Shown: piece after piece, positions 33,728 to 46,093 of the stretch
How positions within the stretch are numbered: the first letter of the stretch is position 1
How the letters are laid out: each line of letters begins with the position of its first letter
NCBI RefSeq assembly: GCF_000819865.1
Contig: NZ_CDDF01000001.1
Span: 318,036-382,035, forward strand
Reading direction: 5' to 3'
Origin: Aeromonas eucrenophila
Lineage (GTDB): Bacteria > Pseudomonadota > Gammaproteobacteria > Enterobacterales > Aeromonadaceae
Length of the DNA stretch: 64,000 bases
Notes under the pieces: generated by a model
Seen by the model: only the letters and a program-made list of their open reading frames with translations
Database searches by the model: none
Told to the model about the DNA's origin: nothing
Position numbers and translations under genes: made by a program

Positions 33728-33892
33728 AGGGGAGTCCCGCGCAAAAGCGGCATTATGCCAAAAGCGCGGGCAAAGCGGGATCGCTAAATCGCGTTGCAAT
33801 GCACCTTCTTGTGCGCGCGACGCCGCTCAAGGTGCAGGGCATCCGCGCTGTGCTGGTGTTGACGGCATGGGAGGCGAGCAAGCGGACAAACC

Positions 33893-34135
33893 TCAGACGA
33901 AGATATCGATCTTGTGCTCGGGATCCGGCTTGTGATCATCGTCTTTGGTCGCCGGCTGATCGCGCCTAGCCTGTGGATGGGGTGGCTGCTGCGACCCCTC
34001 GCCACCGCCGTCGGCACTGGTCTTGCGCAGCTTGTGCTTTTGGCTTATCTGGGTCACCTCCCGCTTGATGTCATCGGGACTCGGGGACGCCGGCGCCCGT
34101 GGCAAGATGGGGAATAACAGGTCCTGACTGGGCAT
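33893..34135 (-). CDS. Small hypothetical protein, disordered
   Basis: An 80-residue frame, MPSQDLLFPILPRAPASPS at the start and DPEHKIDIFV at the end, with a hydrophilic Gln/Pro/Asp/Lys-rich middle and no predicted membrane segment. GGAG lies 7 bases before the ATG. I recognise no family. A good ribosome site and unforced codon use support it; function is unknown. It diverges from the his operon. Confidence 0.55.
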   Translation of the reverse strand: MPSQDLLFPILPRAPASPSPDDIKREVTQISQKHKLRKTSADGGGEGSQQPPHPQARRDQPATKDDDHKPDPEHKIDIFV

Positions 34136-34220
34136 GATGCGACTCCGGCTGAGCTGATTGATTAGTTATCGACCGAACAATCGTTTTCTTGATTTTAATC
34201 CATCAAGTCACATTCTCGGG

Positions 34221-34248
34221 TTGCAATTTCCGTCAAGGTCGGTAATGT
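34221..34248 (+). promoter_or_regulatory. Candidate his operon promoter
   Basis: TTGCAA, 16 bases, TAATGT, about 45 bases before the hisL start. Placed by consensus only. Confidence 0.45.
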
Positions 34249-34294
34249 AAATCGGGCGTCATCTACGACATCTTATTCGTAAAGGATTCATTAC

Positions 34295-34345
34295 ATGAAG
34301 TTCAACCAACTGAAGACTCATCACCACCATCATCATCCCGAATAG
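34295..34345 (+). CDS. hisL: his operon leader peptide
   Basis: A 16-residue peptide, MKFNQLKTHHHHHHPE, with six consecutive His codons (E. coli has seven). AAAGGA lies 8 bases before the ATG. Ribosome stalling at the His codons when charged tRNA-His is scarce should favour the antiterminator over the hairpin at 34413-34446. Confidence 0.93.
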   Translation: MKFNQLKTHHHHHHPE

Positions 34346-34412
34346 TCTTTCAGGAGGTTGACTGCTGGAAGACACTTAACTGGTGACTTCCAAAAGGACC
34401 GCAAGATTCATA

Positions 34413-34446
34413 AACCCTCGGAAGCACACACTTCCGAGGGTTTTTT
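34413..34446 (+). terminator. his attenuator terminator
   Basis: Stem AAACCCTCGGAAG/CTTCCGAGGG followed by TTTTTT, between hisL and hisG. With hisL it makes a classical transcription attenuator. Confidence 0.92.
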
Positions 34447-34474
34447 CGTTTTTGACTAGTAAGGAAATCGAGCA

Positions 34475-35371
34475 ATGGAAACACAACGTCTGCGCATCGC
34501 CATGCAAAAATCCGGTCGCCTGAGCCAGGACTCCCAGGCTCTGTTCAAGAGCTGCGGCCTCAAGATCAACTTGCGCGAGCAGCGTCTCATCGCCCACGTG
34601 GAAAACATGCCCATCGACATACTGCGGGTGCGTGATGACGATATCCCGGGCCTGGTGATGGAAGGGGTGGTCGACCTTGGCATCATCGGCGAGAACGTGC
34701 TGGAAGAAGTGCAGCTCATCCGCGCTTCCCAGGGCCAACCCTTCGCGGTCAAGACCCTCAAACAGCTCGACTTCGGCGGCTGCCGTCTCTCCCTCGCCAT
34801 TCCCGACGACGTGGAGTATCAAGGCCCCGCCAGCCTCGCCGGCAAGCGCATCGCCACCTCCTACCCTGGTCTGCTCAAGCGCTTCTTCGATGAACAGGGC
34901 CTGAGCTTCAAGAGCGTGATGCTGGGTGGCTCGGTGGAAGTGGCGCCGCGCGCAGGTCTGGCCGACGCCATCTGCGATCTGGTCTCCACCGGTGCGACCC
35001 TCGAGGCCAACGGCCTCAAAGAGGTGGAAGTCATCTACCGCTCCAAGGCGGTGCTGGTGCAGGCGCCCAATCCATTGAACGCCGCCAAACAGGCCATCAT
35101 CGACAAGCTGTTGCCCCGCATCCAGGGCATGCAACAGGCTCGCGAAAGCAAATACATCATGCTGCACGCCCCCAAAGACAAGCTCGATGCCATCACCTCC
35201 CTGCTGCCGGGTGCCGAGCGCCCCACCATCATGCAGCTGGCCGGTGACACCAATCAGGTCGCCCTGCACGTGGTATCCAGCGAGACACTGTTCTGGGAGA
35301 CCATGGAGCAGCTCAAGGCCCTGGGTGCCAGCTCCATTCTGGTACTGCCCATCGAAAAAATGATGGAATAA
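34475..35371 (+). CDS. hisG: ATP phosphoribosyltransferase
   Basis: First, feedback-inhibited step of histidine synthesis: ATP plus PRPP gives phosphoribosyl-ATP. It has 298 residues, the long (HisGL) form with the C-terminal regulatory domain ([21 protein letters not shown] near 230). [12 protein letters not shown] and [18 protein letters not shown] (PRPP site, near 170) are clear. AAGGA precedes the ATG at a 9-base spacing. Confidence 0.97.
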
Positions 35372-35383
35372 GGACGGGACATC

Positions 35384-36682
35384 ATGCAGACCCTGATCTG
35401 GAAGACCCTCTCCCCCGCCCAACAGGCCGACGTGCTGACCCGGCCGGCGTTGAATGACGAGGCCGACATCGGCGCCGTGGTGCGGGACATCATCGCCGCC
35501 GTGCGTGGCCGGGGAGATGAGGCCCTGCGCGAGCTCGGCCTGCGCTTCGAACGTGCCCCCCGCGAGCAGTTGCGGGTGAGCGAAGCCGAGACGGACGCCG
35601 CCTGCGCGCGCCTCGGGGATGACATCAAAGATGCCATCAATGCCGCCATCAACAACATTCGCACCTTCCACGCAGCGCAAGTGCAGCCGATTGTGCGGGT
35701 GGAAACCCAACCCGGCGTCATTTGTGAGCTGCGCACCCAACCCATCAGCCGGGTCGGCCTCTATGTGCCGGGGGGCAGCGCCCCGCTCCCTTCAACCGTA
35801 ATGATGCTGTCCATTCCGGCCGCCATCGCCGGTTGCCGTGAGGTGGTGCTCTGCACCCCGTCCCCCGCCAGCGACGAGATCCTGTTTGCCGCCCGCGCCT
35901 GCGGCGTGCGCCAGGTGTTTGCCATCGGCGGCGCCCAGGCCATCGCTGCCATGGCCTATGGCACCGAGTCCATCCCCAAGGTGGACAAGATCTTTGGCCC
36001 GGGCAATGCCTACGTGACCGAGGCCAAAGGTCAGGTCTCCCGCGACTGGCGCGGCGCGGCCATCGACATGCCGGCCGGCCCCTCCGAGGTGCTGGTGATA
36101 GCCGACGAGAGTGCCAACGCGGCCTTCGTGGCGGCGGACCTGCTCTCCCAGGCCGAGCACGGCCCGGACAGCCAGGTGGTGCTGGTCACCACCTCGCCGC
36201 GCCTGGCCGATGCCATCAGCGGGGAGATAAAGGCGCAGCTGACCCGGCTCAGCCGCCGGGACATCGCCGCCAAGGCGCTCGGCTCAAGCCTGGTGATCCT
36301 GTGCGACAGCCTGGATGAGGCCTGCGCCATCTCCAACGCCTATGCCCCCGAGCACTTGATTGTGCAGACCGAGGCACCGCGCGACTTGCTCGACAGGCTA
36401 GAGAACGCCGGCTCCATCTTCTTGGGAGCCTGGACGCCGGAATCCGTGGGAGATTACGCCAGCGGCACCAACCACACCCTGCCCACCTACGGCTATGCCC
36501 GCACCTGCTCGAGCCTCGGGCTCGCGGATTACCAGCGCCGCTACACGGTGCAGGAGCTGAGCGTCGAGGGTATCCAGGGGCTGGGTCCCATCGTCCAGCG
36601 CATCGCCGAGGCCGAGGGGCTCGATGCCCATAAAAACGCCGTCACCCTGAGGCTAAAAGCACTGCAAAAGGGGCTGTCATGA
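35384..36682 (+). CDS. hisD: Histidinol dehydrogenase
   Basis: NAD-dependent four-electron oxidation of histidinol to histidine, the last two steps. It has 432 residues (E. coli 434). VGLYVPGGSAPLPSTVMML near 125, GPGNAYVTEAK near 205, DMPAGPSEVLV near 228 and the zinc/catalytic HGPDSQ and GTNHTLPTYG motifs are present. The end NAVTLRLKALQKGLS is intact; the same stretch recurs in degenerate form in the mini-ORF that follows, whose ATG overlaps this stop. Confidence 0.97.
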   Translation: MQTLIWKTLSPAQQADVLTRPALNDEADIGAVVRDIIAAVRGRGDEALRELGLRFERAPREQLRVSEAETDAACARLGDDIKDAINAAINNIRTFHAAQVQPIVRVETQPGVICELRTQPISRVGLYVPGGSAPLPSTVMMLSIPAAIAGCREVVLCTPSPASDEILFAARACGVRQVFAIGGAQAIAAMAYGTESIPKVDKIFGPGNAYVTEAKGQVSRDWRGAAIDMPAGPSEVLVIADESANAAFVAADLLSQAEHGPDSQVVLVTTSPRLADAISGEIKAQLTRLSRRDIAAKALGSSLVILCDSLDEACAISNAYAPEHLIVQTEAPRDLLDRLENAGSIFLGAWTPESVGDYASGTNHTLPTYGYARTCSSLGLADYQRRYTVQELSVEGIQGLGPIVQRIAEAEGLDAHKNAVTLRLKALQKGLS

Positions 36683-36783
36683 AGATCACCGCCCCAGCGG
36701 GCCGCGATGCCCGCCTAAACAACGCCGTCACCCTGAGATTGAACGCCCTCACCGCCAAGCAGCAACAAAAGGATCTGTCATGA
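36679..36783 (+). CDS. Mini-ORF between hisD and hisC carrying a copy of the hisD C-terminus
   Basis: A 34-codon frame. Its ATG overlaps the hisD stop (ATGA) and its TGA overlaps the hisC ATG (ATGA). It begins MKITAPAGRDARLN and then repeats the hisD end: NAVTLRLNAL and ...KDLS-stop against NAVTLRLKAL and ...KGLS-stop. In E. coli hisD and hisC adjoin directly. The likely origin is tandem duplication of the junction, with the open frame kept so that ribosomes pass from hisD to hisC. Whether the peptide itself matters is unknown. Confidence 0.5.
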   Translation: MKITAPAGRDARLNNAVTLRLNALTAKQQQKDLS

Positions 36784-37877
36784 GCATCGCCAATCTGGCT
36801 CGCCGCGTGGTGCGGGCCCTCACCCCTTATCAATCCGCCCGCCGCATCGGGGGCAATGGCCACGTCTGGCTCAACGCCAACGAGGCGCCGCTGGCCTACC
36901 CCTTCACCATCGAGGGCAGCCGCCTCAACCGCTACCCCCAGTGCCAACCGGCCGCCGTGGTGAACGGCTATGCTGCCTATGCAGGGGTGAACCCGGATCA
37001 GGTGCTGGTGAGCCGGGGCGCCGACGAGGCCATCGAGCTGCTGATCCGCACCTTCTGTGAGGCGGGAGAAGATCAGATCCTCATCTGCCCGCCGACCTAC
37101 GGCATGTACGCCATCAGCGCCGAGACCTGCGGGGTCGGCATCGTCGAGCAGCCGCTGACCCCCAGCCGTCAGCCAGACTGGCCCGCCATCCAGGATCGCC
37201 TCTCCGACGTCAAGCTGGTGTTCCTCTGCTCCCCCAACAACCCGACCGGGGATCTGGTGGGTCGCAAGGGCCTGATCAAGCTGCTGGAGAAGGCTCAGGA
37301 TCGCGCCATCGTCGTGGTGGACGAGGCCTACATCGAGTTCTGCCCGGAAAGCTCGGTGGTGGACCTGCTCGCCCGCTTCCCGAACCTGGTGGTGACCCGC
37401 ACCCTCTCCAAGGCCTTCGCACTGGCGGGCATCCGCTGCGGCTTCACTCTGGGGGATCCCGAGGTCATCGCCATGCTGGCCAAGGTAATTGCCCCCTACC
37501 CCATTCCCGAGCCCATCGCCCAGATAGCGGCCCAGGCGCTCTCCCCCATGGGGCTGGAGTTGATGCAGGAGCGGGTTATCGAACTCAACAAGCAAAAGGC
37601 CATCATCAAGGGCGAGCTGGCGAGCCTCCCCTGCGTGAAGGAGATCTTCGAGGACAAGGGCAACTTCGTGCTGGTGCGCTTCGACGACAGCGCCGCGGTG
37701 TTTGCCGCCATGAAGGCCGCCGGCATAGTCCTGCGGGACTTCTCCAGCAAGCCGGGGCTCGACAACAGCCTGCGCATCACCATCGGCTACCAGGGAGAGA
37801 TGGATGCCGTACTCGAGGTGCTGCGCGGCCTCGGTGCCAACAACGTACCCGCCGACAAGATGTCTGCCACTCGCTGA
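36780..37877 (+). CDS. hisC: Histidinol-phosphate aminotransferase
   Basis: PLP-dependent transamination of imidazole acetol phosphate. It has 365 residues (E. coli 356). NLARRVVRALTPYQSARRIGG, CSPNNPTGDLV near 155, VVDEAYIEFCPE near 180 and the PLP lysine in TLSKAFALAGIRCG near 210 are conserved. The ATG overlaps the mini-ORF stop, so it depends on translation through that insert or on independent initiation at the GGATCT-type site before it. Confidence 0.97.
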   Translation: MSIANLARRVVRALTPYQSARRIGGNGHVWLNANEAPLAYPFTIEGSRLNRYPQCQPAAVVNGYAAYAGVNPDQVLVSRGADEAIELLIRTFCEAGEDQILICPPTYGMYAISAETCGVGIVEQPLTPSRQPDWPAIQDRLSDVKLVFLCSPNNPTGDLVGRKGLIKLLEKAQDRAIVVVDEAYIEFCPESSVVDLLARFPNLVVTRTLSKAFALAGIRCGFTLGDPEVIAMLAKVIAPYPIPEPIAQIAAQALSPMGLELMQERVIELNKQKAIIKGELASLPCVKEIFEDKGNFVLVRFDDSAAVFAAMKAAGIVLRDFSSKPGLDNSLRITIGYQGEMDAVLEVLRGLGANNVPADKMSATR

Positions 37878-37891
37878 TAAGGATGTAACCC

Positions 37892-39024
37892 ATGAAGACC
37901 CCATTTTTGTTTATCGACCGCGACGGCACCCTGATCGAGGAGCCGGTGACCGACAAGCAGGTGGACAGCCTCGCCAAGCTGCGCTTCGAGCCCATGGTGA
38001 TCCCGGTGCTGCGCGAGCTGCAGGCCGCCGGCTACGTGCTGGTGATGGTGACCAATCAGGACGGGCTCGGCACTGCCAGCCTGCCCCTTGAGAACTTCCA
38101 GCCCCCCCACGACCTGATGATGCACCTGTTCGAATCTCAGGGTGTGCACTGGGAGCAGGTGCTGATCTGCCCCCACTTCCCCACCGACGGCTGCAGTTGC
38201 CGCAAACCCAACCTCGGGCTGGTGAAGGAGTACCTCGCCTCCGGTCGCATCGACTTTGCCAACTCCTTCGTGATTGGCGATCGGCAGACCGACCTGCAAC
38301 TCGCCGACAACATGGGCATCCGTGGCATTCGCTATCAGCCACAAGATCATGGCTGGCTCGCCATCCGTGATCAGCTGCTGTCCAAGGGACGCGTCGCCGA
38401 GGTGGAGCGCTACACCAAGGAGACCCGCATCCAGGTGGCGGTGGATCTCGACAAGAGCGGCGGCAACCAGATCGCCACCGGCATCGGCTTCTTCGATCAC
38501 ATGCTGGATCAGATAGCCACCCACGCGGGTTTCAGACTGAAGCTCAAGGTGAGCGGCGATCTGCACATCGACGATCACCACACGGTGGAAGACGTCGGCC
38601 TCGCCCTGGGTCAGGCCCTGCGTCAGGCCCTCGGCAGCAAGCGTGGCATCGGTCGCTTCGGCTTCGTGCTGGCGATGGATGAGGTGCAGGCGGTGATCGA
38701 TGGTCGTCCTCGCCACAGCGATGACGCCGCCCCCCTCACCGAGCTGGATGTGGCCACCGCGCTGGACTTGAGCGGCCGCCCCTACTTCGTGTTCGACTGC
38801 CCGAGCGGCTTTGGCCGCGACAGCGTGGGGGAGATGGCCACCGAAATGGTGCCGCACTTCTTCCGTTCCCTGTCGGACGCCATGGCCATCACCTTGCAGA
38901 TGAAGGTCGGCAGCGGCAACACCCATCACCAGGTGGAGGCGCTGTTCAAGGGCTTCGGACGAGCTCTGCGCCAGGCCATCCGGGTCGAGGGGAGCGAGCT
39001 GCCCTCCAGCAAGGGGGTGTTGTG

Positions 39025-39025
<1 letters not shown>
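37892..39025 (+). CDS. hisB: Histidinol-phosphatase / imidazoleglycerol-phosphate dehydratase
   Basis: Bifunctional enzyme. The HAD phosphatase half ([12 protein letters not shown], zinc loop [14 protein letters not shown]) occupies about 1-165 and the dehydratase half ([42 protein letters not shown]) the rest. It has 377 residues against about 355 in E. coli. The excess is an in-frame insert near residues 270-290, between [10 protein letters not shown] and ALDLSGRPY. The inserted [20 protein letters not shown] partly resembles the flanking sequence. Active-site motifs are intact. Confidence 0.96.
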
Positions 39026-40397
<1,372 letters not shown>

Positions 40398-40412
40398 TCG
40401 GAATTGCTGTGT

Positions 40413-40432
40413 GAGCCCGTGTTTACGGGCTC
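40413..40432 (+). terminator. Hairpin after hisA
   Basis: 8-bp stem GAGCCCGT/ACGGGCTC with a 4-base loop and no T tract; it may reduce rather than end transcription. Confidence 0.4.
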
Positions 40433-40525
40433 CCTACTGGCGCATCGTCGAGTCTGAGCCATCATTTATCCTTTAGTAACAATCGACTCTATACTCGACT
40501 GACCCCTTTGCGTCATGGAGGCGCC

Positions 40526-41635
40526 ATGTTCACAGCCCAAGCCGCCACCATCCTGATCGTCGACGATGCTCCCGAGAATCTGATGGTGCTGACGGATCTG
40601 CTCACCCCTGTCTATCGCGTGCTGGCCGCCCAGGGGGGCGAGAAGTGCCTGCGCATCGCCACCGGCTCACCCCGGCCGGATCTCATCCTGCTGGATGTGA
40701 TGATGCCGGACATGGATGGTTATGAGGTGCTGCGCCGGCTGCAAGCCGATCCAGCCACCAGCAACATTCCCGTGGTGCTGCTCACAGCTCTTTCTGATCC
40801 CCGCAGCGAGGCGCAGGGGCTGGCCCTCGGCGCCACCGACTACATCACCAAACCCATCAACCCCGCCATCGTCCAGGCCAGGGTACGCACCCAACTGGAG
40901 GCCAAACAGGCGAGAGAAGGGCTGCAGAGCCAGAATGCCCTGCTGGAGGCCGAGGTATCGAGGCGCATGGCGGAGAACGACCTGATCCAGCAGGTTTCCA
41001 TCCGCGCCCTCGCCCATCTGGCGGAGATCCGGGATCCCGAGACCGGCAACCACATACTGCGCACCCAGCTCTATGTGCGCCATCTCGCCATCGGTCTGGC
41101 GAGCCATCCCCGTTTCAGCGACACCCTGACCCCCGCCTACATAGAGCTGCTCAGCCGCTCTGCCCCCCTGCACGATATCGGCAAGGTGGGGATCCCGGAT
41201 CAGATCCTGCTCAAGCCGGGCAAGCTGACCGATGAGGAGTGGCCCATCATGCGCACCCACGCCAAGCTCGGCAGCGACGCCATCGAGGAGGCGGAGCGGG
41301 ACATAGATCAGCCCCTGGCCTTCCTCACCCTGGCCAAGGAGATAGCGCACTGGCACCACGAGAAGTGGGATGGCAGCGGTTATCCCGACGGGTTGAACGG
41401 CGACGACATCCCTGTCTCCGCCCGGCTGATGGCGCTGGCCGATGTGTTCGATGCCCTCGTCACCGTCCGGGTCTACAAGCCCCCCATGCCATACCAACAA
41501 GCGAGGAGTCTTATCCTCGCGGGCAGCGGGCTGCACTTCGATCCGGACGTGGTGGCCGTCTTCGATGCCCAGTTCGAGCAGTTCATCGCCATCGCCGAGC
41601 GCTACCGTGACGATCACGAGGTGCCCCATGACTAG
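40526..41635 (+). CDS. Response regulator with HD-GYP domain
   Basis: A 369-residue two-domain protein. The receiver domain (about 1-125) has the phospho-acceptor Asp57 in LLDVMMPDMDGY and TALSDP/KP. A short coiled coil leads to an HD-GYP phosphodiesterase domain with H216-D217 (LHDIGKVGIPD) and G285-Y286-P287 (DGSGYPDG), followed by SARLMALADVFDAL. The residues needed for c-di-GMP hydrolysis appear present. GGAGG lies just before the ATG at 40526. It is inserted between hisA and hisF, together with the hybrid kinase that follows. Confidence 0.93.
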   Translation: MFTAQAATILIVDDAPENLMVLTDLLTPVYRVLAAQGGEKCLRIATGSPRPDLILLDVMMPDMDGYEVLRRLQADPATSNIPVVLLTALSDPRSEAQGLALGATDYITKPINPAIVQARVRTQLEAKQAREGLQSQNALLEAEVSRRMAENDLIQQVSIRALAHLAEIRDPETGNHILRTQLYVRHLAIGLASHPRFSDTLTPAYIELLSRSAPLHDIGKVGIPDQILLKPGKLTDEEWPIMRTHAKLGSDAIEEAERDIDQPLAFLTLAKEIAHWHHEKWDGSGYPDGLNGDDIPVSARLMALADVFDALVTVRVYKPPMPYQQARSLILAGSGLHFDPDVVAVFDAQFEQFIAIAERYRDDHEVPHD

Positions 41636-41717
41636 GCTACCACCGCTCGCCAAGGCCCCGGCCACACCGGCTGAATGCCCCAGGATCCCACCGTCGCCCG
41701 AGGAGCGTCCCGCATGA
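41628..41717 (+). CDS. Possible coupling mini-ORF between the HD-GYP and kinase genes
   Basis: A 29-codon frame starting at an ATG inside the last codons of the HD-GYP gene ([11 protein letters not shown]...) and ending with a TGA that overlaps the kinase ATG (ATGA). The bases before the kinase start resemble the HD-GYP 3' end: GTCCCGCATGAA against GTGCCCCATGAC, giving VPHE against VPHD. The match is short, so this may be chance. Confidence 0.3.
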
Positions 41718-44700
41718 AATGGATTTTCCCCCTGAGCAGGCATCAATGGATAGGCGCCTGCCTGCTGGCCATACTGATGCCCCTGTTCGTGCTGCTGATC
41801 CGGCTCCAGCTGCCCATTCCCGTCGAGGAGCGGCCGCTGCTGGTGCTGTTCATGTTGCCCATCATCGTCTGCGCCCTGCTGGGGGGGCTGTTGCCCGGCC
41901 TCATCAGCACCCTCTGCGTGGCCCTGATGACCGCCTATTTCATTCTGTCACCGCGCCATGAGCTCTATATCGCCTCCGGCCAGGACCAGGTGCAGTGGGG
42001 CCTGCTCGTCGCCAACGGTGTCCTGATCACCCTGCTGAGCGCGGCCATGCACCGCTCCCGCGTCAGGGAGAGCCAGCGCTGGCAGGAGCTGCTGAACACC
42101 CAGTCCCGGCTGCGACAGAGTGAGGATCGCTTTCAGGCCACCTTCGAGCAGGCCGCCGTCGGTATCGCCCTGGTCTCCCCCGACGGCACCTGGCTGCGGG
42201 TCAACCAGCGCCTGTGCGACATGGTGGGCTATAGCGCCGACGAGCTGATGGAGATGACCTTCCAGCAGATCACCCACCCGGACGATCTCTTCATCGATCA
42301 GAGCTATGTCGATCAGGTCCTGGCCGGCGAGCGCCAGCACTATGCCTTGGAGAAGCGCTACCTGCGCAAGGGGGGCGAGGCGTTCTGGATCACCCTGACC
42401 ACGACTCTGGTCAAGGATCTGCAGGGGCAACCGGATTACTTCATCTCCATCATCGAGGACAACCAGCAGCGCAAGGAGACCGAAGCCGCCCTGCGTCGCA
42501 ACGAGGTGATCCTGCGCGAATCCCAGCGCCTGGCCAAGATCGGCAACTGGCGCTGGCACCTGGTTCAGGACACCCACTACTGGTCCCCGGAGATCTTTCG
42601 CATCTACGGTCGGGATCCCTCGCTCCCCCCGGCCGTCTACCCCGAGGTGCAGAACTACTTCACCCCACAGGCCTGGCACACCCTGAGCCAGGCCGTGGAT
42701 CGCTGCCTGCAGGATGGCGCCCCCTACGAGTGCGATGCCGAGGTCATCACCCCCAGCGGGGAGGCCGCCTGGATCATCGCCCGTGGCACTGCCCTGCGAG
42801 ACGAGAGCGGTACCATCGTGGAGCTGTACGGCACTGTGCAGGACATCACGGAGCGCAAGCTGGCCGAGCAGCAATTGCGACAGCTGTCCCTGGCCCTGGA
42901 GCAGAGCCCGGACGGGATCTTCATCACCAATACCGAATCGCGCATCGAATATGCCAATGCCGCCTTCCTGGCCGCCAGCGGTTATACGGAGGAAGAGGTG
43001 CTGGGGCAAAGTCCTCAGCTGTTCGACTCCGGCCTCACCCCGCCCGCCACCCATGTCGCCCTGCAGGATGCCCTCAAACGCGGCCAGCGCTGGCACGGGG
43101 AGTTCATCAACCAGCGCAAGGATGGCAGCCACTATCAGGTGCTGGCCTCCATCTCCCCCATTCGCCGGGATAACGACCAGGTGACCCACTTCGTGACGGT
43201 GCAGGCGGACATCACCGAGAAGAAGCAGCTCGGGGAGGAGCTGGATCAGTATCGCTTCCACCTGGAGGAGATGGTCAGCGAACGCACCCAGCAACTGGCC
43301 CAGGCACACCAGCGCGCCGAGAGCGCCAACCAGGCCAAGAGCGCCTTCCTCGCCAACATGAGCCACGAGATCCGCACCCCCATGAACGCCATTCTGGGGC
43401 TCACCTACCTGCTCAAGCGGGATGCCAAGGAAGCCGGCCAGCACGATCGGCTGGAGAAGATAGACAACGCGGCCCAGCACCTGCTCACCCTCATCAACGA
43501 CATCCTGGATCTCTCCAAGATCGATGCGGGCAAGATGCTGCTGGAGTGCCACGACTTCTCTCTCGTCGCCATGCTGGACAACGTCTGCGCCCTGATGGAC
43601 GAGCAGGCCAGCGCCAAGGGGCTCGCCATCCAGATCGATCTCGATGGCGCCCCGGTCTGGCTCAACGGCGACATCACCCGCCTGCGCCAGGCGCTGCTCA
43701 ACTACGCCGGCAATGCCATCAAGTTCACCGAGACCGGCACCATCACCCTGCGGGTGCGGATGCTGCGCAAGCTGCTCAGCGGCTACCAACTGCGCTTCGA
43801 GGTGGAGGACAGCGGCATCGGCATCACGGCGGTGCAGCGCGAGCGGCTGTTCCAGGCCTTCGAGCAGGCCGATGTCTCCACCACCCGCAAATACGGCGGC
43901 ACCGGTCTCGGGCTGGCCATCACCAGCCGTCTGGCCAAGCTGATGGGAGGCGAGGTAGGGGTCGAAAGCACGCCCGGCAAGGGCAGCTGCTTCTGGTTCA
44001 CCGCGCAGCTCGCCCCGGGCAAGAGCATTCCCCTGCCACCGGTACTGCCGAGCCAGCCGAGGCAACCCTTCTTCTCCTCCTACCCGGCTCGCCTGCTGCT
44101 GGTGGAGGACAATGCCATCAACCGGGAGGTGATCACCGAGCTGCTCACCGGCAGCGGCCTCGTCATAGAGACGGCGGTCAACGGGCTGGATGCGCTGGAC
44201 AAGATCCGCCACCAATCGTTCGATCTCATCCTGATGGACATACAGATGCCGCTGATGGATGGTTACAGCGCCACCCGCGCCATCCGGGCCCTGCCCGATC
44301 AGGATCAGGTGCCCATACTGGCGCTCACCGCCAGTGCGTTCGAGGAGGACAGGAAGGCCTGCGAGGCCGCCGGCATGAACGACTTCATCACCAAACCCGT
44401 CACCCCGGCCAGGCTGTTCGAGGCGCTGCGGCAATGGTTGCCAGCGGATACCCCCGCAACCTCGCCTCAGCGGCCCGCCGAGCGCTGGTGCGCCCCCCTC
44501 GCCCGGCTGCAGGAGATGCCCGGCTGGGATCTGGTGCAGGGCCTGGCGGCGCTGCAAGGGGATCAACAGAAATACCTCAGGCTGCTGCGCTTCTTCGCGG
44601 TCCAGCATCGAGGAGACACCGAACGCCTGGCCGAATGCCTGGCAAAGGGGGATCGCCCCTGTGCCATTGGCCTGGCCCACAGCCTGCGCGGCGCCGCCTC

Positions 44701-45133
44701 GACCCTGGGTCTGACCAGCCTTGCCGAGCAGGGGTTGCAGCTGGAGCAGGCCTTGCGGGCACAGGAAGAGGATCTGCTGGCCGCCCTGATCGCCGGCATA
44801 GGCCGGGATCTGGTCGAGCTTGAGCTCCGGCTGGGAGCCGAGGATGAGCAGACGGACATGGTTTCCCCCCTGCCAAGCAGCCACTGGCAGCAGCAGTTGC
44901 TGCGCCAGCTGGAGGCGCTGCTGGCCCAGAGCGATACCGCCGCCATAACCCTGTTCGATCAGCACGCCGGCGCCATGCTTGTCGGCCTTGGTGAACAGGG
45001 CACCCTGCTCGCCCAGCAGCTGAAGGGGTTCGACTTCGACGGCGCCCTGATCACCATCAGGGGGCTGAAGCAGGTGGAGAACAACCTGCTGGCCTTCCAT
45101 TCGGAGGGATCCGGCGCCATCACCCGACATTGA
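41714..45133 (+). CDS. Hybrid sensor histidine kinase (PAS, HisKA, HATPase, REC, HPt)
   Basis: A 1139-residue inner-membrane kinase. N-terminal helices (about 8-120) resemble the KdpD-type DUF4118 membrane domain. Three PAS units follow, near 140-255 ([15 protein letters not shown]), 275-390 and 395-510 ([14 protein letters not shown]). The phospho-acceptor His551 is in [11 protein letters not shown]. ATPase boxes include EDSGIGI and GTGLGLAI. The receiver has Asp842 ([12 protein letters not shown]) and the HPt has His989 ([12 protein letters not shown]). It ends in a phosphorelay HPt that could pass phosphate to the HD-GYP regulator beside it. The ATG at 41714 has AGGAG upstream. Confidence 0.93.
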
Positions 45134-45165
45134 GGGGCGGCGCAGAGAGGAATGCGGAGAAAGGG

Positions 45166-45196
45166 TTGGATCGGGGCACGAGGTCGTGCTTATAGT
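45166..45196 (+). promoter_or_regulatory. Possible promoter for hisF-hisI
   Basis: TTGGAT, 19 bases, TATAGT, in the gap between the kinase gene and hisF. The spacing is longer than ideal. If real, it would let hisFI be expressed apart from the attenuator-controlled genes. Confidence 0.3.
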
Positions 45197-45319
45197 GTGG
45201 GCTCTTTGCCCCTAGGCCCATACCGGCGCCATGCCAGCCCGCTTTATCCAGGATCACGAGAAAGCCGGCATCACCCGGCTGAATCGATTGTTAACCGTGC
45301 TTTACATGGAGCAACGAGC

Positions 45320-46093
45320 ATGTTGTCAAAGCGTATTATCCCCTGTCTCGACGTCAAAGACGGCGTCGTGGTCAAGGGAGTGCAGTTTCGAAATCACGAA
45401 GTGATGGGGGGCATAGTCGAGCTGGCCCGCCGCTACGCCAGCGAGGGGGCCGACGAGCTGGTGTTCTATGACATCACCGCCTCCAGCGACGCCCGGGTGG
45501 TGGACAAGAGCTGGGTGAGCCGGGTCGCCGAGGTCATCGACATTCCGTTCTGCGTCGCCGGCGGCATCAAGAGCGTGGAAGACGCGCGCCAGATCCTGGA
45601 GTTTGGCGCCGACAAGGTCTCCATCAACTCCCCCGCTCTGGCGGATCCGACCCTGATCACGGCGCTGGCCGAGCGCTTCGGCGTGCAGTGCGTGGTAGTC
45701 GGCATCGACTCCTACTTCGATGCCGCCATCGGCGAGTATCAGGTCAAGCAGTTCACCGGCGACGAGAGCCGCACCCGCACCACCGCCTGGACCACCCTGG
45801 AGTGGGTCAAGGAGGTGCAAAAGCGCGGCGCGGGTGAAATCGTGCTGAACGTGATGAACCAGGACGGCATGCGCCAGGGTTACGATCTCGAGCAGCTCAA
45901 GCTGGTGCGGGCTCTGTGCAAGGTGCCGCTCATCGCCTCCGGTGGCGCCGGCACCATGGCACACTTCCTCGATGCCTTTACCCTCGCCGACGTGGACGGT
46001 GCCCTGGCGGCCTCCGTGTTCCACAAGGGCCTTATCCCCATTCCCGAATTGAAACGCTGGCTGAAAAACGAAGGAGTCGCCATCCGTGAATAA
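45320..46093 (+). CDS. hisF: Imidazole glycerol phosphate synthase, cyclase subunit
   Basis: TIM-barrel cyclase, partner of HisH, 257 residues (E. coli 258). [20 protein letters not shown] and the paired catalytic Asp (CLDVKD and NVMNQDGM) are conserved, as is the [10 protein letters not shown] region. GGAG lies 8 bases before the ATG. The frame is open upstream to 45152 but the family start is 45320. It is separated from hisA by about 4.9 kb. Confidence 0.97.

Follow-up and report, generated by a model that had tools for sequence, protein, structure and literature searches.

Why do hisD and hisC of Aeromonas eucrenophila, two enzyme genes that are joined by an ATGA overlap in relatives, have a short open reading frame between them, and what might such a frame do? 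The original prediction placed a 34-codon mini-ORF between the two genes, with ATGA overlaps at both ends, and the ORF coordinates in the window (the whole 64,000-nucleotide stretch of DNA analysed here) bear this out (Table 1).

Structure of the hisD-hisC junction

Compared with an ATGA-joined hisD-hisC pair, the window has 101 extra bases and, as had been stated, they form an uninterrupted frame. The claim that the segment repeats the end of hisD also stands. In a local alignment, the insert and the hisD 3' end score 45, while the maximum of 2000 dinucleotide shuffles is 29. A repeat search identified a stretch of 32 nt with 81% identity, and a 42-nt pair that is 71% identical and spaced by 101 nt. 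The likeness of the insert to the hisC start is not significant (score 18, shuffle mean 15.6).

Table 1. Features of the hisD-hisC junction, in window coordinates
Feature	Position	Strand	Basis and remarks
hisD	35384..36682	+	ORF list; Pfam PF00815, 2.2e-164; alignment with E. coli HisD 1k75
hisD 3' end (copy 1)	~36600-36682		Duplicated donor segment; C-terminus NAVTLRLKALQKGLS, then stop
GCATCGCC in hisD (R-I-A codons)	36600..36607	+	Inferred left breakpoint microhomology
Shine-Dalgarno-like AAGGGGC, 5' of mini-ORF ATG	36668..36674	+	Anti-SD duplex -7.0 kcal/mol (window)
ATGA overlap, hisD/mini-ORF	36679-36682
Mini-ORF, 34 codons (copy 2)	36679..36783	+	Translation MKITAPAGRDARLNNAVTLRLNALTAKQQQKDLS; overlaps hisD at its start and hisC at its stop
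Copy of hisD 36632-36663 (NAVTLRLNAL)	36718..36749	+	81% identity at the DNA level
Shine-Dalgarno-like AAGGAT, 5' of hisC ATG	36769..36774	+	Anti-SD duplex -5.4 (window); encodes KD of the QKDLS tail
ATGA overlap, mini-ORF/hisC	36780-36783
hisC	36780..37877	+	ORF list; Pfam PF00155, 5.9e-57; start within the ATGA common with the mini-ORF stop
GCATCGCC at hisC start (S-I-A codons)	36784..36791	+	Inferred right breakpoint microhomology

When both strands are counted and nested starts are taken separately, the window contains 17 ATGA-ORF-ATGA chains of 15-80 codons, and only in the mini-ORF chain do the flanks on both sides have at least 100 open codons. Elsewhere, on the minus strand (57274-57042), short frames of 41 and 36 codons are ATGA-chained and are followed by a frame of 722 codons. 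The mini-ORF peptide has no Pfam match at E 0.001. An Rfam scan of 33800-41000 at the gathering score matched only the his leader and found no RNA element at the junction, and the reading of the insert as an RNA element was dropped. The histidine operon leader (RF00514, 80.5 bits, 34321-34449) lies before hisG, encodes a leader peptide with six histidine codons and is ordinary. An antisense frame of 420 codons (36642-37904, minus strand) is open across hisC and the mini-ORF, and in all six genomes with the insert one antisense frame runs open through the mini-ORF; the open antisense frame is probably an effect of composition. Further downstream, the his operon is interrupted (40398-45319) between hisF (45320-46087) and a gene that we take to be hisA, a label given from its sequence without a family search. 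Inside this split Pfam identifies two products, an HD-domain response regulator (40508-41635) and, after it, a hybrid PAS/histidine-kinase protein (41675-45133). The distance from the hisA-like gene to hisF is 5.0-7.7 kb in 14 of the 36 genomes with both matches listed and 38-137 bases in the others.

Distribution of the insert

The junction was searched for in 37 genomes of the genus and matched in 36; the unmatched genome (G030) is 80% complete. The mini-ORF is not peculiar to the window genome. It is found in six of the 36 species, namely that of the window (G000), A. lusitana (G017), A. molluscorum (G019), G036, G025 and G003, and appears to be old, probably of single origin and repeatedly lost or exchanged. 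In 27 of the 36 genomes hisD is joined directly to hisC by ATGA, without an insert. All 33 main-clade genomes have ATGA before hisC, the upstream frame being either hisD (27) or the mini-ORF (6). In the three earliest-branching genomes (G009, G027 and G029; loci L033, L035 and L036) the hisD stop lies 13-14 nt before hisC, with no ATGA overlap and with a separate SD-like site. This non-overlapping gap shows that coupling by ATGA overlap is dispensable in the genus.

Outside Aeromonas, 65 loci were examined, 59 of which have a hisC match at most 1.5 kb after hisD. The nearest hisC start is at -4 from the hisD end in 30 of these 59, including most Citrobacter, Enterobacter, Kluyvera and Buttiauxella loci, and the same holds for all three genomes sampled from another genus in the family. 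The claim that hisD and hisC adjoin in E. coli was checked on relatives of E. coli and is to this extent supported. Frames of at least 10 codons linking the hisD stop to the hisC start occur in two of the 59 loci. One (L086) has 11 codons and stops short of the likely hisC start. The other, in a Balneolaceae MAG (L102) with a gap of 99 nt, is 36 codons long, shares 8 nt with the end of hisD and joins the hisC start through ATGA; it is not copied from the hisD end, and the gap contains a GC-rich inverted repeat. It is possible that this is an independent relay frame, in the sense proposed below. Relay-like frames at the hisD-hisC junction may extend beyond Aeromonas, although this single case may be chance. 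No paper on the insert was found among the titles and abstract openings from literature searches, and a search on Aeromonas hisD/hisC gave nothing on topic, judged from the listing.

Frame integrity and selection

The inserts of the six genomes are 101, 98, 86, 113, 113 and 113 nt long, every length being 2 mod 3. They encode peptides of 29-38 amino acids, the frame is unbroken and ATGA is present at both ends in all six. The length differences, which require at least three changes, are multiples of 3 throughout. The original prediction proposed aligning this junction across the genus and looking for frameshifts or stops in relatives; with one genome per species, none is found in the six carriers. 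Parsimony on a tree fixed by hand gives 83 substitutions in the mini-ORFs, for which 1.7-3.4 stops are expected without constraint and none is observed.

A comparison of synonymous with nonsynonymous change had also been proposed, and its outcome differs between parts of the frame. N/S ratios were calculated as NG86 proportions over the 15 pairs of insert genomes. For the whole mini-ORF the ratio is 0.41 in frame 0, compared with 0.92 and 1.37 in the shifted frames and with 0.16 over the last 150 codons of hisD. The unique codons 2-14 have a ratio of 0.59 (0.63 over three non-overlapping pairs), which is not significantly below 1 (Fisher p 0.29); their shifted frames give 1.20 and 0.96. The NAVTLRLNAL segment of the mini-ORF has a ratio of 0.23, or 0.20 over the three pairs (Fisher p 2e-5), and hisD has 0.07 over its own NAVTLRLNAL. 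The mini-ORF is under constraint, weaker than that of hisD and chiefly in the hisD-homologous part. Conservation of the frame in the 3' part may date from periods when this DNA served as the end of hisD.

Proposed translational coupling of hisC

We hold with moderate confidence, as the best explanation of the whole, that a single duplication of the junction produced a mini-ORF that acts as a termination-reinitiation relay from hisD to hisC, that its peptide is incidental and that the duplicate is unstable. Ribosomes ending hisD would restart at the first ATGA, translate the roughly 30 codons of the mini-ORF and, on terminating there, restart once more at the second ATGA to enter hisC. The relay would keep hisC coupled where, without it, the roughly 100 extra nt would break the coupling. 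By analogy with known gene pairs, relaying termination-reinitiation from hisD to hisC is likely to be the function of the mini-ORF, and the peptide is probably incidental. One E. coli study (PMC10666635) describes three pairs with a native 1-nt overlap in which a 38-nt gap cut reinitiation by 80-90% in two cases and abolished it in one. In the two pairs tested for it, the final 15 nt of the gene upstream were enough for reinitiation, and in one of the pairs there was some direct initiation too. If this gap effect applies to Aeromonas, an untranslated gap of 97 nt would be expected to uncouple hisC, an effect not expected of an open frame that has a new ATGA. The original prediction was of a junction duplication that kept coupling through an open frame. 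The duplication and the frame, open in all six genomes, are found, and the coupling itself is argued by analogy.

The SD-like sites of the mini-ORF in the six genomes have predicted anti-SD duplexes of -5.7 to -8.3 kcal/mol, and those of hisC range from -5.2 to -5.5 kcal/mol throughout the main clade (33 genomes), whether or not the insert is present. Predicted folding of the start regions in five of the six genomes ranges from -9.8 to -22.3 for the mini-ORF, compared with -6.5 to -8.6 for hisC, and in G019 the two starts fold alike (-10.2 and -10.8). The more folded mini-ORF start in five of six genomes suits dependence on translation arriving from hisD. The hisC SD is about equally strong with and without the insert, which suggests that hisC might start on its own.

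If it does, the duplication could be a harmless neutral passenger, with hisC starting from its own SD, a frame that is open since it was born in phase, and pieces lost or exchanged before they decay. The lack of significant constraint in the unique part of the mini-ORF fits this reading, as does the higher overall ratio compared with hisD. The SD and local folding of hisC resemble those of insert-free genomes, and 30 of the 36 genomes do without the insert. The unbroken frame in all six carriers, in spite of the substitutions and of length changes that are all multiples of 3, speaks against it, and so does the retention of an SD-like site 5' of the mini-ORF in all six. We consider a neutral passenger unlikely, although it deserves to be taken seriously.

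A functional microprotein is improbable. The peptide resembles a HisD C-terminal tail without the AHK histidine, and it could in principle bind HisD or HisC and tune the enzyme; the low N/S ratio of NAVTLRLNAL is in agreement with such a role. However, this constraint may stem from interchange with real hisD ends, and the N-terminal part is weakly constrained. In G036 the segment reads STVTLKLTAL, with four of ten residues changed, and a peptide that is missing from most of the genus and matches nothing in Pfam is a poor candidate for such a role. The relay remains the reading that we prefer for the frame.

Origin of the mini-ORF by duplication

In all six mini-ORF peptides the stretch that begins with Met and closes with the Ala of GLDA (or its counterpart) is exactly 11 residues long. 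All six also have one extra codon before NAV, lack the His of the HisD AHK (AHKNAV) and have a T-[AT]-P motif in common. In the 1k75 alignment this His corresponds to residue 419 of E. coli HisD, which we take to be a zinc ligand; a literature search for a zinc-ligand role of His419 found no supporting paper. The common extra codon and the missing histidine make one origin most likely, and from this sequence evidence the insert most likely arose a single time during the evolution of the main Aeromonas clade. On the rpoB+gyrB tree of 36 genomes the insert is scattered and needs five changes, all forced by well-supported branches, compared with a mean of 5.7 for shuffled labels; the hisD and hisC trees also need five each, of which five and four are forced. 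This scatter, together with a microhomology that could create a hotspot, would be compatible with several independent duplications at one site instead of a single origin, but the derived codons and the motif shared by all six disfavour this, and we regard it as very improbable.

The duplication register in the window is hisD CGC ATC GCC and hisC AGC ATC GCC, which have GCATCGCC (8 nt) in common, in the same codon phase and encoding Ile-Ala in both. At 120 other offsets in the window genome the longest run is 6, none reaching 8. Runs of at least 8 nt at this register are found in 14 of the 36 genomes. Three insert carriers have shorter ones (7 in G025, 6 in G019 and 3 in G003), and G018 has a 9-nt run at another offset. 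We suggest that a tandem duplication of the hisD-hisC overlap, in which the repeated unit was about 83 nt long and the 8-nt same-phase match probably served as a guide, would have fused the start codons of hisC in frame to the 3' end of hisD, the copy being the mini-ORF with its own SD-like site. By hand count, the two microhomology sites are 83 nt apart in G026, which has the shortest tail among insert-free main-clade genomes, and the shortest insert, 86 nt in G036, is what a unit of 83 nt would give once the extra codon is added. Codons 2-6 of the present mini-ORFs have no clear resemblance to either parent. The same-phase GCATCGCC at the two ends of the unit would by itself give a mini-ORF that is in frame and flanked by ATGA on both sides. 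There is no need to suppose, as was originally suggested, that the frame was born to preserve coupling, since an open frame would follow mechanically.

Probable loss or exchange of the copy

Vertical descent from one gain would need 14 losses. Given one origin and a patchy distribution, losses, exchange or both must have happened. Insert presence and absence appear, from the sequences at the junction, to interconvert by deletion between copies or by recombinational exchange. The duplicate would be unstable, as recombination between the copies or exchange between species would restore the clean hisD-hisC overlap. Tail length is one indication. In the insert genomes hisD has 5-6 codons after NAL and the mini-ORFs have 10, 9, 5, 14, 14 and 14, while, in the 27 main-clade genomes that lack the insert, hisD has 5 (1 genome), 9 (6), 10 (2) or 14 (18). 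The longest exact stretch between each mini-ORF and the best of 30 insert-free hisD ends is 22, 48, 19, 27, 52 and 15 nt, and with the hisD of its own genome 17, 8, 9, 11, 10 and 8 nt, shorter in all six, in a comparison of mini-ORF 3' ends that pits the best of 30 genomes against one. The G019 mini-ORF is matched still more closely by another mini-ORF (27). When genomes are compared over the 60 nt of hisD that end at NAL, G025, G003 and G019 each have an insert carrier as their nearest genome and not their own sister species, with the insert-free G033 a close second for two of them.

In a mosaic test over 10 codons, copy 1 followed by copy 2 fits better than the reverse in 18 of 27 insert-free genomes, and the test segment is nearer to copy 2 than to copy 1 in 18 of 27, with mean identities of 0.80 and 0.79. 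The rows are not independent, and the test was set aside as weak evidence of direction. The two copies show no sign of concerted evolution inside a genome, the identity of copy 1 and copy 2 being 0.74 in the same genome and 0.75 between genomes. We speculate, while thinking it rather doubtful, that the mini-ORF and the 3' end of hisD can stand in for one another, the duplication being ancestral to the main clade, the freed copy evolving length variants and repeated precise deletions giving most living species a HisD tail derived from the mini-ORF. If this were true, the coupling relay would be a side store rewriting the end of an enzyme.

Comparison with known coupling systems

The closest natural parallel in the literature consulted is with the mycobacterial interspersed repetitive units (MIRUs) that carry coupling ORFs, in which a small ORF is coupled by a -4 overlap at the insertion site (PMC12548453). 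Like these, the mini-ORF is a small ORF that overlaps both neighbouring genes. MIRUs are described there as apparently mobile and repetitive (PMC12548453), whereas the Aeromonas insert arose from the junction itself by local tandem copying and is not dispersed. A search with the mini-ORF peptide (E up to 1) in the 37 genomes of the genus gave matches that, among those listed (31 of the 37 genomes), all lie at the junction or at the hisD end, with one match in the window genome itself; a MIRU-like dispersed repeat was rejected, no further copies being among the listed matches. ATGA termination-reinitiation pairs, as two studies present them, have a 4-nt overlap with an SD-like site near the stop, as here (PMC6728339; PMC10666635). 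Unlike such pairs, the Aeromonas junction has two overlaps in series around a frame of 29-38 codons copied from the end of the upstream gene. Coupling uORFs, bicistronic designs and nfORF boosters likewise use a short ORF to deliver ribosomes to the next gene (PMC12548453; PMC13255528; PMC5995908). However, bicistronic designs are synthetic constructs and a uORF lies ahead of a gene, whereas the mini-ORF would be a natural relay between two enzyme genes.

These results suggest a one-step route from an overlapping gene pair to a new coupled small ORF, in which same-phase microhomology would supply the frame, start, stop and SD ready-made. The six species with the insert and the 27 relatives without it, with an identical ATGA before hisC, form a natural experiment that asks whether open frames are selected for by coupling. 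They also advise caution, as a small intergenic ORF that is conserved may be a relay and not a microprotein. The mini-ORF between hisD and hisC most likely illustrates, in nature, how a small gene can be retained because of where it lies and not because of its product.
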